Source: Halobacterium sp. R2-5 (GTDB taxonomy: Archaea; Halobacteriota; Halobacteria; Halobacteriales; Halobacteriaceae). Taken from it: a stretch of DNA of 64,000 bases. Below the pieces are notes generated by a model that was given only the letters and a program-made list of their open reading frames with translations, ran no database searches and had not been told where the DNA came from. Position numbers and translations under genes: made by a program. This document shows, in pieces, positions 35,118 to 40,177 of this stretch. Where the stretch lies: NCBI RefSeq assembly GCF_011734195.1, contig NZ_JAANTH010000001.1, positions 248,001 through 312,000 on the forward strand. Reading direction: 5' to 3'. Positions within the stretch are counted from its first letter, which is position 1, and each line of letters opens with the position of its first letter.

Positions 35118-36671
35118 ATGACCGACACAGACGACGACACGGACGCCGAGGACGCGCCGGGCGCGGACAGCGTCGCGCTCGACCCGTGGGGCTCCTCGAC
35201 GGTCTCGGACTACCGCAAGCTCTTCGAGGAGTTCGGCATCGAGTCCTTCGAGGACGTCATCGACGAGGTGCCCGACCCGCACTACCTGATGCGCCGGGCC
35301 ATCATCTTCGGGCACCGCGACTACCGCCGCGTCGCGGACGCGATGCGCAACGACGAGCCGTTCGCCGCGCTGTCGGGGTTCATGCCGACCGGCGACCCCC
35401 ACATCGGCCACAAGATGGTGTTCGACGAGATCATCTGGCACCAGCAGCAGGGCGCCGACGCGTACGCGCTCATCGCGGACCTCGAAGCCCACGCCGCCCG
35501 CGGGCTCTCCTGGGAGGAGATCGACGAGCACGCCCGGGACTACCTCCTCTCGCTGCTCGCGCTCGGCTTCGACGCCGACGACGGCACGCTCTACCGCCAG
35601 TCCGCGAACCGCGAGCTCCAGGACCTCGCCTTCGAGCTCGGCGCGGAGGCGAACTTCTCGGAGTTCGAAGCCATCTACGGGTTCGACGGCGAGACCGACG
35701 TCTCTCACATGCAGAGCGTCGTCACCCAGATGGCGGACATCCTCTACCCGCAGCTCGAAGCATCGAAGCCCACCGTGATTCCGGTCGGCCCGGACCAGGA
35801 CCCCCACATGCGGCTCGCCCGCGACCTCGCCGAGCGCACGCGCTACTTCAAGGTCACCGAGGCGTACGCCAGCGTCGCGTTCGACGACGACGAGCGCCCG
35901 CTCGTCTCCGCCGCCTACGAGGCCCGCGAGCAGTACGCCGAGGACGCGAGCCAGCCGCGCTGCGCGGAGGCCGCCGACTGGCTCCGCGACGACCCCGCGC
36001 TCGTGGCCGAGTTCGACGGCGAGGTCGTCTCGTCGGTCGTGGAGAAACTCGACAACGCCGGGATGGAGCCGCTTCGTCCCCGGATTCGGTTCTTCGACAG
36101 GCAGGCCACGGAGGACGCCTTCGAGGCGCTCATCGACGAACTCGCCGGCGAGAAGCGCGTCTTCGAGGGCCACGTCGACGCCTTCGACATCGAGCGGGAG
36201 ACCGCCGAAGACCTCGCGCTCGCCGTCGAAGTCGACCACGGCGGCTACGGCTTCGTGCCTCCATCTTCGATCTACCACCGCTTCATGACGGGGCTCACGG
36301 GCGGGAAGATGTCTTCCTCGATTCCCGCGAGCCACATCAGCCTGCTCGACGACCCCGAGGACGGCTACGACAAGGTCAAGGCCGCGACCACGGGCGGCCG
36401 CGAGACCGCCGAGAAGCAGCGCGAACTCGGCGGCGAGCCCGACCAGTGTCCCGTCTACGAGCTGTACGCGTACCTCCTCGCGGCTGACGACGACGAGTTC
36501 GCCGAGCGCGTCTACGAGGAGTGCGCGGGCGGCGAGCGCCTCTGCGGCGGCTGCAAGGAGCAGGCCGCCGAGCTCATGGCGGAGTTCCTCGAAGACCACC
36601 AGGAGAAACGCGAGGAAGCGAAGGAAGTCCTCGAGGACCTCGACGTCGAACTCGACTCCGCGCGAGCGTGA
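35118..36671 (+). CDS. trpS: Tryptophanyl-tRNA synthetase
   Basis: This class I synthetase charges tRNA-Trp. The protein has 517 residues. The HIGH motif is in GDPHIGHKM (about 91-99) and the KMSKS equivalent is GGKMSSSIP (about 395). An acidic N-terminus (1-25) precedes the archaeal/eukaryotic-type core with SGFMPTGDPHIG. A cysteine pair CGGCK near residue 475 may bind zinc in the C-terminal domain. It is translated from the endA transcript or very close to it, with a two-base gap. The upstream gene processes the tRNA that this enzyme charges. Confidence 0.95.
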   Translation: MTDTDDDTDAEDAPGADSVALDPWGSSTVSDYRKLFEEFGIESFEDVIDEVPDPHYLMRRAIIFGHRDYRRVADAMRNDEPFAALSGFMPTGDPHIGHKMVFDEIIWHQQQGADAYALIADLEAHAARGLSWEEIDEHARDYLLSLLALGFDADDGTLYRQSANRELQDLAFELGAEANFSEFEAIYGFDGETDVSHMQSVVTQMADILYPQLEASKPTVIPVGPDQDPHMRLARDLAERTRYFKVTEAYASVAFDDDERPLVSAAYEAREQYAEDASQPRCAEAADWLRDDPALVAEFDGEVVSSVVEKLDNAGMEPLRPRIRFFDRQATEDAFEALIDELAGEKRVFEGHVDAFDIERETAEDLALAVEVDHGGYGFVPPSSIYHRFMTGLTGGKMSSSIPASHISLLDDPEDGYDKVKAATTGGRETAEKQRELGGEPDQCPVYELYAYLLAADDDEFAERVYEECAGGERLCGGCKEQAAELMAEFLEDHQEKREEAKEVLEDLDVELDSARA

Positions 36672-36687
36672 GCGCCCGCTGACGGAA

Positions 36688-36697
36688 TCCTTTTCAC
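36688..36697 (+). promoter_or_regulatory. TATA-like box for the pheS upstream ORF
   Basis: TCCTTTTCAC is centred about 26 bases before the ATG at 36720. With haloarchaeal spacing this predicts a leaderless transcript starting at the short ORF rather than at pheS. Confidence 0.5.
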
Positions 36698-36719: not shown

Positions 36720-36797
36720 ATGGCGTCCGAACCCCACGCCGGTCGCAGCGCACGCCGAGTAGCCGCAGCTCCGGGGTTCGGCTTCTTCTTCGCCTGA
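36720..36797 (+). CDS. Phe-rich 25-residue ORF upstream of pheS, candidate leader peptide
   Basis: ATG to TGA, 25 residues. The first 18 residues are Ala/Arg/Pro-rich (MASEPHAGRSARRVAAAP) and the last seven are GFGFFFA, with four TTC codons in the final six sense codons. It ends 108 bases before pheS, in the same direction. The position of Phe codons directly before the stop resembles the leader peptide of bacterial pheST (pheM). A T-rich TATA-like box at 36691 has leaderless spacing to this ATG. Downstream hairpins that cannot form together are listed next. I do not know of a described archaeal example; this is an inference from sequence. Confidence 0.6.
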   Translation: MASEPHAGRSARRVAAAPGFGFFFA

Positions 36798-36811
36798 ACG
36801 GGGCGGGTGGA

Positions 36812-36862
36812 CGCCGCAGTCCGGCGGGAGCCGGGAAGCGGCCGAAACCGCCCGTTCGGGCG
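36812..36862 (+). promoter_or_regulatory. Overlapping alternative hairpins between the Phe-rich ORF and pheS
   Basis: Three stems follow the ORF stop. CGCCG-CAGTC-CGGCG spans 36812-36826. GCGG-CCGAAA-CCGC spans 36838-36851. CGCCC-GTTC-GGGCG spans 36849-36862. The second and third share bases 36849-36851 and are mutually exclusive. No U-run follows the last stem, so simple termination is not evident. A weak GGATAAC box at 36873 could be a separate pheS promoter. Confidence 0.45.
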
Positions 36863-36905
36863 CAGAGCGGAACGGATAACTGACTGCCACACACCCCTAC
36901 GCACA

Positions 36906-38414
36906 ATGAAACTGCCACCACAGCAGGTCGCGGTGCTCGAAGCGTCGAGCGCCGACGAACCGAGACGCATCGCCGACCTCGCGGCCGAAATCGAGCGGCC
37001 GCCGGAGACGGTCACGGGCGCGGCGTTCGAACTCGAAGACGCCGGGCTCGTGGACGTCGTCGAAGAAGTCGAGGAGGAGGCCGAACTGACTGAGGAAGGC
37101 CGCGAGTACGCCGAGGACGCGCTCCCCGAGGTACGGCTCTACGAGGCCGCCCTCGACGCTGGCGCCGACGACGACCCTGTGTCGATGGGCGAGGTCATCG
37201 GCGCGTCCGGACTGGAAGGCCCGCAGGTCGACATCGCGCTGTCGAACTACGCCCGGAAGGGCTACGGCAGCATCGACAGCGGCGACGTCTCTGCGAATCC
37301 CGACGCCGACCCCAGCGAGGACACAGAGGCCGCCGCACTCGAAACGCTGGCCGCGGGCGGCACCGTCGAGGACGAGGACGCACTCGACCAGCTCGCGCGC
37401 CGCGACCTCGTCGCCGTCCGCGAGCGCACCGTCCGGTCCGTACTGCTGACCGAGGCGGGTGTCACCGAGCTCATGGCGGGCGTCGAGGCCACCGAACAGG
37501 TCGGCCAGCTCACCCCGGACATGCTCGCGTCCGGCGAGTGGCGCGACGCCGAGTTCGCCGACTACAACGTCGAGGCCGACGCCGGCGAGTTCACGCCCGG
37601 GAAGACCCACGTGCTCCGGCAGGCCGCCGAGCGCGTCAAGGAGGTGCTCGTCGGGATGGGCTTCCAGGAGATGGAGGGCCCGCACGTCGACGCGGACTTC
37701 TACATCAACGACTGTCTGTTCATGCCCCAGGACCACCCCGCGCGCAACCACTGGGACCGGTTCGCCCTGGAGCAGCCCGAGAGAATCGACGAGCTCCCCG
37801 CGGACCTCGTCGAGCGCGTCGAGCGCGCGCACCGCGAGGGCGTCGGCCCGGACGGCGACGGCTACCACTCGCCGTGGGACGAGGACTTCGCGCGTGCGCT
37901 CGCGCTCCGCGGGCACACGACGAGTCTCACCGCCCGCTACCTCTCCGGCGTCGCTGGCGAGGACGTGGAGGCACCCGCCCGGTACTTCAGCGTCGAGAAG
38001 GCCTACCGCAACGACACCCTCGACGCCACGCACCTCCTGGAGTTCTTCCAGATCGAGGGCTGGGTGATGGCCGAGGACCTCTCCGTGCGGGACCTCATGG
38101 GGACGTTCCGGGAGTTCTACAGCCAGTTCGGCATCACGGACCTGGAGTTCAAACCCACGTACAACCCCTACACGGAGCCGAGCTTCGAACTGTTCGGCCG
38201 CCACCCCGAGACCGGCGAGCTCATCGAGATCGGGAACTCCGGCATCTTCCGGCCGGAGATGCTCGAACCGCTCGGCGTCGACGCCGACGTGATGGCGTGG
38301 GGGCTCGCCCTCGAACGGCTACTAATGTTGGTCACCGGCTTCGAGGACATCCGCGACGTCCACGGGACGCTGTGTGACCTAGACTTCCTGCGGGACGCGG
38401 AGGTGGTGTACTGA
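36906..38414 (+). CDS. pheS: Phenylalanyl-tRNA synthetase, alpha subunit
   Basis: This class II catalytic subunit has 502 residues. Two N-terminal winged-helix domains (about 1-75 and 90-190) replace the bacterial coiled coil, as in archaea and eukaryotes. The catalytic core includes FQEMEGPHVDADFYINDCL (motif 1 region), a motif 2 region RYFSVEKAYRNDTLDATHLL, and the motif 3 MAWGLALERLLML. The Phe-binding stretch IEIGNSGIFRPEML is intact. The stop TGA overlaps the pheT ATG by one base, so the subunits are made together. The upstream leader-like ORF suggests it may be regulated by phenylalanine supply. Confidence 0.95.
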   Translation: MKLPPQQVAVLEASSADEPRRIADLAAEIERPPETVTGAAFELEDAGLVDVVEEVEEEAELTEEGREYAEDALPEVRLYEAALDAGADDDPVSMGEVIGASGLEGPQVDIALSNYARKGYGSIDSGDVSANPDADPSEDTEAAALETLAAGGTVEDEDALDQLARRDLVAVRERTVRSVLLTEAGVTELMAGVEATEQVGQLTPDMLASGEWRDAEFADYNVEADAGEFTPGKTHVLRQAAERVKEVLVGMGFQEMEGPHVDADFYINDCLFMPQDHPARNHWDRFALEQPERIDELPADLVERVERAHREGVGPDGDGYHSPWDEDFARALALRGHTTSLTARYLSGVAGEDVEAPARYFSVEKAYRNDTLDATHLLEFFQIEGWVMAEDLSVRDLMGTFREFYSQFGITDLEFKPTYNPYTEPSFELFGRHPETGELIEIGNSGIFRPEMLEPLGVDADVMAWGLALERLLMLVTGFEDIRDVHGTLCDLDFLRDAEVVY

Positions 38415-40177
38415 TGCCCGTCGTCGACATCGACCCCGACGAGCTCCGTACGCTCACGGGGCACAGCGAGAAGAGCGACGACGAGCTCAAGGACGACCTC
38501 TTCGGGCTCGGCATCGAGTTCGAGGGCGAGACCGAGGACGGCGAGTTCAAACTCGAGTTCGAGGCCGACCGCCTCGACCGCCTCTCCGTGGAGGGCATCG
38601 CGCGCTCGCTGCGCTACCACTACGGCGACACCCGCGGCGTCTACGTCCCCGACACGAACGCCGCCGAATGGACCATCAACGTCGAGGACGTGCCCGACGA
38701 CCGGCCGTACGTCACGGGCGCCGTGATTCGCGGCGTCGACCTCGACGAGGACGCCCTCGACTCGCTCATCCAGCTCCAGGAGAAGCTCCACGCGACGATG
38801 GGCCGCAAGCGCGCGAAGGGCGCCATCGGCATCCACGACCTCGCGATGCTGAAAGGGCAGGTGGCGCGCGGCGCCACCGACCGCGCGAGCGGTGAAACCG
38901 CGAGCGAATCCGTCAACGGCGAGGACGGCAACGCCGATCGCTCCATCACGTACACGGGGATCGAGCCGGACGGCGACACGTTCGTCCCGCTAGACGACGA
39001 CGCCGAACGCACGCCCGGCGAAGTGCTCTCCGAACACCCGACCGGCGAGCAGTACGCCGACCTGCTCGATGAGTACGAGCGCTACCCCGCGATCTACGAC
39101 GACATCGGGCTGTTCAGCTTCCCGCCGGTCATCAACGGCCGCCGCACCGAAGTGTCGACGGACTCCCGGGAGCTGTTCGTCGAGCTCACCGGCACCGACC
39201 AGTGGACCATCGACCGGATGTGCGCCATCATCTGTTACGCGCTCGACGCGCGCGGCGCCACCGTCGAGGACGTCAACGTCGCGTACGACGACGCCGAGCT
39301 CGTGCGCCCGGACTTCGAGGTGCAGACCAAGCGCGTCGCCCACGACCGCGTCGAGACGCTGCTCGGCATCGACCTCGAACCCGACGACGTCGTCGACCTC
39401 GCCGAGCGCGCGGGGCTCGACGCGGAGCCCGAGGGCGGCGACCACTTCACCTACGAGGTGGAGGTTCCGCCGTATCGCGTGGACGTCCTCCACCCCGTGG
39501 ACGTCGTCGACGACATCGGGCGCGCGTACGGGTTCAACGAACTCGTGCCGCGGTACCCCGACGTCAGCACGGTCGGCGGACGGACGGAGACCTCGCGGCT
39601 GGAGGCCGCTGCCCGGGAGACGCTCGTCGGCCTCGGCTTCGAGGACCTCCTGAACTTCAACATGACCAGCGAGGCCGACAACTTCGACCGGATGCGCATC
39701 TCGCCCGCGGACGACGCCGTTGGGGCTGCCGACCCCGCGACCATCTCGGAGCCGTACAGCGAGGACTTCACCATCCTCCGCACGTGGGCGCTGCCGTCGC
39801 TCGTCTCCGTCCTGGAGAACAACACCCATCGGTCGTACCCGCAGGACCTCGCGGAGATCGGGTTCGCCGCCCACGTCGACGGCTCCACGGAGACCGGCGT
39901 GGCAGAGCGCCGCACCGTCGCCGCCGTGCTCGCGCGCCACGACGCCTCCTACGAGGACGCGAAGGCGCGCCTCGCAGCGCTCTGTGAGGAGTTCCACGTC
40001 GACCTCGAGACGCCCGCCACCGAGCACCCGTCGTTCATCGACGGCCGCGCCGCCAGCGTCGTCATCGATGGCGAAGCAGTGGGCGTCATCGGCGAGCTCC
40101 ACCCCGCGGTCATCGTCGACCACGACGTCGAAGTGCCCGTCGCCGGCTTCGAGTTCGAACTCGACGCGCTCCGGTAG
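38414..40177 (+). CDS. pheT: Phenylalanyl-tRNA synthetase, beta subunit
   Basis: This 587-residue partner of PheS forms the alpha2beta2 enzyme. It has the archaeal-type layout: an N-terminal B1-like domain with DPDELRTLTGHSEKSDDEL, a B3/B4 editing module (about 95-260) with PPVINGRRTEVSTDSRELF, a B5 DNA-binding-fold domain with VAHDRVETLLGIDLEPDDVV, and a C-terminal catalytic-like module with NFNMTSEADNFDRMR. The tRNA-binding (EMAP) and anticodon-binding FDX domains of bacterial PheT are absent, which is normal for archaea. The start overlaps the pheS stop. Confidence 0.95.
   Translation: MPVVDIDPDELRTLTGHSEKSDDELKDDLFGLGIEFEGETEDGEFKLEFEADRLDRLSVEGIARSLRYHYGDTRGVYVPDTNAAEWTINVEDVPDDRPYVTGAVIRGVDLDEDALDSLIQLQEKLHATMGRKRAKGAIGIHDLAMLKGQVARGATDRASGETASESVNGEDGNADRSITYTGIEPDGDTFVPLDDDAERTPGEVLSEHPTGEQYADLLDEYERYPAIYDDIGLFSFPPVINGRRTEVSTDSRELFVELTGTDQWTIDRMCAIICYALDARGATVEDVNVAYDDAELVRPDFEVQTKRVAHDRVETLLGIDLEPDDVVDLAERAGLDAEPEGGDHFTYEVEVPPYRVDVLHPVDVVDDIGRAYGFNELVPRYPDVSTVGGRTETSRLEAAARETLVGLGFEDLLNFNMTSEADNFDRMRISPADDAVGAADPATISEPYSEDFTILRTWALPSLVSVLENNTHRSYPQDLAEIGFAAHVDGSTETGVAERRTVAAVLARHDASYEDAKARLAALCEEFHVDLETPATEHPSFIDGRAASVVIDGEAVGVIGELHPAVIVDHDVEVPVAGFEFELDALR

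Follow-up and report, generated by a model that had tools for sequence, protein, structure and literature searches.

A Phe-codon leader upstream of haloarchaeal pheST that probably senses charged tRNA-Phe

Introduction

The pheST operon of Escherichia coli is preceded by the pheM leader, which controls it by ribosome-mediated transcription attenuation. In the actinobacteria, a trpS gene of Streptomyces (trpRS1) is reportedly controlled by attenuation in a leader containing Trp codons. T-box leaders are also found in front of synthetase genes and respond to tRNA charging. Leader-peptide control is textbook knowledge in bacteria, but a literature search, which was not exhaustive, returned no description of it in archaea and none of the leader presented here. 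The authors of the start-site map of Hfx. volcanii considered control by structured leaders not to be typical of haloarchaea, and their account of uORFs in long 5'-UTRs gives only length, pI and mass, with no mention there of Phe or Trp codons, RNA structure or regulation (PMC4983044).

Here we describe a leader upstream of pheS in a 64,000-nucleotide stretch of Halobacterium sp. R2-5 DNA, referred to as the window. As in E. coli, a short ORF with a run of Phe codons precedes pheST and the proposed signal is the product of the enzyme itself. Unlike pheM, the haloarchaeal leader has neither a detected intrinsic terminator with a U-run nor a covarying terminator/antiterminator pair; it is leaderless and unrelated in sequence, and the codons of the peptide themselves form a conserved stem. 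A similar relation holds for the second TrpRS gene of haloarchaea, trpS2, which has a Trp-codon leader like that of trpRS1, but this leader is archaeal and leaderless, and its stem is formed by codons 2-5 with sequence located past the Trp codons. A response to tRNA charging is also what we propose for the pheS leader; however, T-boxes bind tRNA directly and without an ORF, and no covariance model of Rfam 15, T-box and riboswitches included, matched the leader at the gathering score. Judged from sequence comparison, it is likely that the leader acts in cis on pheST, senses charged tRNA-Phe through its own translation and in this way feeds back on pheST.

Results

Leader ORF and locus layout

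The features of the locus are listed in Table 1. A sequence-only reading of this DNA had reported the 25-codon ORF, its Phe codons, a TTTTC element and the gap of 108 nt between the uORF stop and the pheS start, all of which were exact on re-inspection. The closest named relative as judged by PheS is H. bonnevillei (91%). No profile of Pfam or NCBIfam, including those for leader peptides, matched the uORF peptide up to E=10.

Table 1. Features of the pheST leader region in Halobacterium sp. R2-5 (window positions)
Feature	Position	Strand	Remarks
trpS stop	36669-36671		upstream of leader uORF
BRE/TATA of leader, ACGGAATCCTTTTC	36682..36695	+	TTTT at -29 to -26 of uORF ATG, leaderless spacing
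Leader-peptide uORF, MASEPHAGRSARRVAAAPGFGFFFA then stop	36720..36797	+	25 codons; between trpS and pheS
P1 5' arm, CCGAACCCC	36727..36735	+	codons 3-6; 97.3% of cells paired, covariation
P1 3' arm, GGGGTTCGG	36773..36781	+	Gly-Phe-Gly codons; pairs with codons 3-6
Sensor codons Phe-Gly-Phe-Phe-Phe	36777..36791	+	Phe kept at four positions
P2 5' extension, CGCCTGAAC	36791..36799	+	over Ala codon and stop; pairs with 36854-36862 in minimum-energy fold
P2 5' strand with conserved GGUGGA core	36801..36811	+	core starts 8 nt past stop; covariation
P3 variable hairpin (GCCGC...GCGGC)	36813..36842	+	91.2% of cells paired; double changes in 5/5 pairs
Conserved GAAACCG core with P2 3' strand	36844..36853	+	
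3' strand of P2 extension, GTTCGGGCG	36854..36862	+	
Promoter-like element of pheS, GCGGAACGGATAACTGA	36867..36883	+	found also in loci without uORF
pheS	36906..38414	+	ATG at 36906
pheT	38414..40177	+	

Conservation of the Phe codons

A total of 110 pheS loci (80 from named genomes and 30 from the genome set, with a few species present twice) were compared. A Phe-rich ORF was found upstream of pheS in 93 of these haloarchaeal loci, giving 87 distinct ORFs which are mostly 24-29 and rarely up to 48 codons long and end 35-259 nt before pheS. The peptide consensus is M-[AP]-x-E-[PS]-(variable)-G-F-G-F-F-F-A. Among the 83 distinct ORFs that could be aligned, Phe occupies the four sensor positions in 83, 79, 72 and 69 cases, while at each of the eight positions before the Phe sites the top residue reaches at most about 35%, and the middle of the peptide varies almost freely. 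A lack of conserved Phe codons in relatives, which had been named as evidence against the leader, was thus not seen. Divergent lineages retain the Phe codons in changed contexts such as AFEPFFD, AFGPFFA, GVGFFFA and AFGFFDAA. When only the P1 arms were searched for and no ORF was required, 74 distinct cases were recovered, of which 72 are in frame and free of stops between the arms. At one locus from a metagenome-assembled genome (L049), P1 and the Phe run are present but one base out of frame with the start, owing to either a sequencing error or a frameshift.

TTC and TTT are mixed at the last three Phe codons, which lie outside P1. The share of TTT at these positions is 28%, 42% and 14%, whereas pheST at these loci has 3.5% (p = 2e-10, 2e-20 and 0.0015), an excess that may serve slow decoding or provide a U-tract. 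The absence of a U-run noted in the sequence-only reading is correct for Halobacterium sp. R2-5, yet 49 of the 87 relatives carry 5-6 T inside the Phe run. There is no T-run longer than three in 32 of the 87 leaders and the Phe-rich end is nonetheless present, and hence it is the Phe codons themselves that appear to be selected. A run of cognate codons in a short ORF, as in attenuators of the trpL/hisL/pheM type, is found here and likewise at trpS2 and valS.

RNA structure of the leader

Two structural elements, P1 and the second element P2/P3, were recovered unaided by RNAalifold. The second element has the order CGG-Y-GGA, a freely varying P3 hairpin and GAAACCG, with its core located 5-9 nt past the stop at most loci. 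P1 and P2/P3 together show 175 double changes compared with 60 +/- 10 in shuffled alignments (0 of 500). In this structure 88.7% of cells are paired, as opposed to 75.8% in the shuffles, with a peak at slide 0 and a drop when the arms are slid. As an example, one P1 pair was observed as C-G 40 times, U-A 33 times and U-G 10 times but never as C-A. Within the stem codons, all 83 of 83 ORFs use GGR for the first Gly (expected 30.5%), Glu at codon 4 is encoded by GAA in 76 of 78 cases (expected 25%) and the Phe codon within the P1 arm is TTC without exception. The conserved N-terminus and the GFG motif largely reflect conservation at the RNA level. When each strand was tested against foreign partners, P3 was supported in 73 of 78 cases, and the P2 extension that spans the stop received weaker support (58 of 78). 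In H. salinarum (L003) the uORF is kept while P2 is unrecognisable. Folding all leaders as single sequences was noisy (P1 in 51 of 76, P2 in 37 of 78) and comparative evidence was preferred for this reason.

The two mutually exclusive hairpins proposed earlier (36838-36851 and 36849-36862) can be drawn, but their pairing probability is 0.0 in the folded leader and the conserved fold is a different one. An antiterminator-like pairing between GGRTTCG of the Phe arm and CGAAACC was also considered; six of its seven positions are complementary, but the mismatch is fixed and no covariation was seen. This alternative arm pairing lacks the covariation expected of a mutually exclusive terminator/antiterminator, and stem exclusion by the ribosome was observed only in the modelling. 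The YGGA/GAAA loop, inspected by eye, did not match the usual kink-turn pattern. No intrinsic terminator with a U-run was found between the stop and pheS in the window, nor is one a common feature of the relatives inspected.

Promoters and transcript

The element CGNAACG-YTTTT occurs at a fixed distance before the start in nearly all of 86 uORFs. The first T-rich tetramer begins at -30/-29 in about 83-84 of the 86 and T is found at -29 in 98%, which is the BRE/TATA spacing of leaderless transcription in haloarchaea. A conserved BRE/TATA-like GGAACCGNTAACTGA is also found shortly before pheS in L018, L019, L021, L032 and most pheS loci, where it may be a promoter for other conditions or something else. 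Because this promoter-like element lies between the leader and pheS, part of the pheS mRNA may be made without the uORF and the leader RNA.

Table 2 of the Hfx. volcanii start-site map lists a 26-aa uORF of pI 5.9 in the 150-250-nt 5'-UTR of pheS (HVO_2948) and lists no additional start at this gene (PMC4983044). The peptide of an f5-family relative has 26 aa and a pI of 5.94 and fits this entry, the match being one of size and pI. A sole transcription start at pheS, which would leave the ORF off the transcript and had been named as evidence against the leader, is accordingly contradicted in Hfx. volcanii, as far as the table goes, by a uORF of matching size on the pheS transcript (PMC4983044). 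At L092 and L093, both from a single genus in the family of Halobacterium sp. R2-5, 35-37 nt separate the end of the uORF from pheS and neither P2/P3 nor the promoter-like element of pheS was recognised. From the start-site table and this layout, the leader would be part of the pheS transcript in at least some species, and presumably in Halobacterium sp. R2-5 as well.

Distribution

Searched with a covariance model for the leader, this genome has one site at E=1e-24, and the next match has E=0.02. Together with the Phe-rich ORF kept in 93 of 110 loci, this difference excludes chance. The weaker matches in this genome (0.02 and worse, with the P2-like L112-L118) appear to be chance hits inside coding genes. 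Within the order Halobacteriales the model matches 315 of 392 genomes and 82 of 95 genera; the remaining 77 genomes gave no match, and some haloarchaea thus appear to do without the leader. A phylum-wide draw of 295 genomes gave 40 matches, 39 of them within the order, and the sole match outside it is weak (5.6e-4) and not leader-like, leaving nothing credible outside the order. There is one leader per genome, ahead of pheS. Second matches in other genomes (L169-L172) are not credible leaders. A further weak second match, L168 (G100:C1:2162590-2162668), contains a short ORF MEGEPGTVGGFGRFLDA followed by GTCGGTGGAGACTCGAG and is possibly a displaced copy of the leader. The leader tracks pheS and is not tied to the trpS-pheS gene order, since 25 loci have it with no trpS found upstream and 36 have it with trpS.

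Leaders of trpS2 and valS

The plasmid-borne trpS2 genes of Hfx. mediterranei, Hfx. larsenii and Natronorubrum are preceded by 23-aa uORFs with Trp-Arg-Trp, e.g. MVSTSHANCWRWHAFREVDSIAV, and in Hfx. mediterranei a perfect 12-bp stem holds the Trp codons in its loop. Another 30 trpS2 loci were compared, and 29 have a uORF that contains between one and three Trp codons and is followed by the second arm of the stem; in 26 of the 29, the strands of a locus pair better with each other than with strands from other loci. Trp-Arg-Trp or a similar motif and a codon-built stem were observed at L173-L177, L179, L182-L206 and L208-L212. trpS2 itself was not found in the genome of Halobacterium sp. R2-5. 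For valS, a leaderless uORF of 9-13 codons with an invariant GTA-GTA (Val-Val), nearly always followed by the Arg codon CGT or CGC, was found in 29 of 29 loci including this genome. GTA is the rarest Val codon and accounts for 0.7% of the Val codons in valS. The valS locus of Halobacterium sp. R2-5 is L243 on the minus strand, and further valS loci are L260-L287. The trpS2 and valS sets were picked by protein similarity and are not independent samples of the tree. No cognate uORFs were found before trpC, hisG, ileS, leuS or the Thr, Ser, Pro, His, Gly and Tyr synthetase-type genes in 5-10 genomes each, where the names of these control genes were assigned by family and size.

Table 2 of the start-site map also gives a 23-aa uORF before the Trp-tRNA ligase HVO_A0127 (PMC4983044), and the HVO_2948 and HVO_A0127 uORFs are very probably the same elements as the leaders described here. 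Cognate codons in front of three synthetases form the strongest argument that charged tRNA would be what is sensed.

Ribosome position and proposed mechanism

In the modelled free leader RNA of the window, P1 and P3 have probabilities near 1.0 and P2 ranges from 0.25 to 0.99 per pair. Placing a ribosome with the first Phe codon in the A site removes P1 and keeps P2/P3, whereas at later Phe codons P2 is weaker and P3 is kept; once the stop occupies the A site, P2 is lost and P3 falls by half. The modelled folds therefore differ with the position of the ribosome, which would act as the switch of the leader fold in the model. As stalls in the Phe run keep P3 and a varying part of P2, a simple scheme where P2 is the terminator would give the wrong sign of response.

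We propose that a leaderless start at about 36720 would allow the ribosome to begin directly on the uORF and that its speed at the terminal Phe codons would be set by Phe-tRNA-Phe. A ribosome waiting at the Phe codons would leave P1 open and one at the stop would occupy the 5' strand of P2, while P1 and P2/P3 would both fold on an RNA without a ribosome. The prevailing fold would determine either the amount of transcript extending into pheST or how strongly pheST is translated, and would feed back on the supply of Phe-tRNA. Stalling during Phe shortage would be expected to raise pheST expression. As for the output, control of transcription continuation is our first choice, held at about even chances; control of translation or decay is our second choice and a more tentative one. 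Haloarchaea are known to terminate transcription at T stretches and at hairpins (PMC7237163), and the termination factor FttA prefers U-rich RNA, with a link to ribosome coupling having been suggested (PMC11616081).

Alternative explanations

The TTT excess, the 49 of 87 leaders with five or six T in a row and the haloarchaeal termination sites just mentioned (PMC7237163) would all suit P1 and the T-rich Phe run being an ordinary terminator-like element, with the Phe codons kept mainly as a U-tract. This is unlikely, as the Phe-rich end persists in the 32 leaders without a T-run longer than three and the sensor codons of the Val and Trp leaders are not rich in T. We consider it very unlikely that PheRS or another protein binds the leader RNA and that translation of the uORF is secondary: the internal loop YGGA/GAAA of P2 is conserved as such a site might be, but the conservation of the frame and the Phe codons exceeds what the RNA would require and P2 is absent from some leaders that keep the uORF.

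Two further explanations place the function in the peptide. The strongly conserved C-terminal motif could point to an arrest peptide, where a chain ending in GFGFFF stalls the ribosome via the exit tunnel regardless of tRNA charging. The motif varies, however (AFEPFFD, GVGFFFA, AFGFFDAA), while the Phe codons persist, and the motifs of the Trp and Val leaders are unrelated and each match their enzyme, which leaves this explanation with very little probability. The least probable is a small functional protein encoded by chance ahead of pheS. Such an ORF is conserved with its own promoter in most haloarchaea and Babski et al. list one among the small proteins they tabulate (PMC4983044), but the peptide is hardly constrained in its middle part, no protein family matches it and its residues track the stem rather than chemistry. 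For example, Pro or Ser at codon 5 follows GGG or GGA, and loci of the Halorubrum type swap GFG for AFE with compensating changes in the other arm. Trp and Val counterparts before cognate synthetases would also be unexpected for a small protein. The idea that a translating ribosome senses charged tRNA-Phe, as first proposed in the sequence-only reading, is well supported by the conserved Phe codons together with the uORF on the Hfx. volcanii pheS transcript and is strengthened by the Trp and Val counterparts; the particular pair of exclusive hairpins proposed with it did not hold.

Discussion

If these elements are read as ribosome-sensed aminoacyl-tRNA leaders, their putative sensor is well supported by comparison, and apart from the published start-site table the evidence is comparative throughout. 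We think it fairly probable that haloarchaea possess a general class of translated, leaderless leaders which control synthetase genes, pheS, trpS2 and valS at least, via the speed of the ribosome at cognate and often rare codons, with two of these three leaders having a codon-built stem. In principle this is the attenuation by leader peptides known from bacteria. Its occurrence in archaea, the leaderless start, the codon stem and the lack of a bacterial-type terminator pair make it a variant and not a member of that group. The uORF itself was already known in one species, whereas no description of the codon logic, the structure or the spread was found in the literature. A conserved, covarying and codon-matched leader with two counterparts offers a ready test of archaeal transcription-translation coupling and of FttA termination in the genetically tractable Haloferax.
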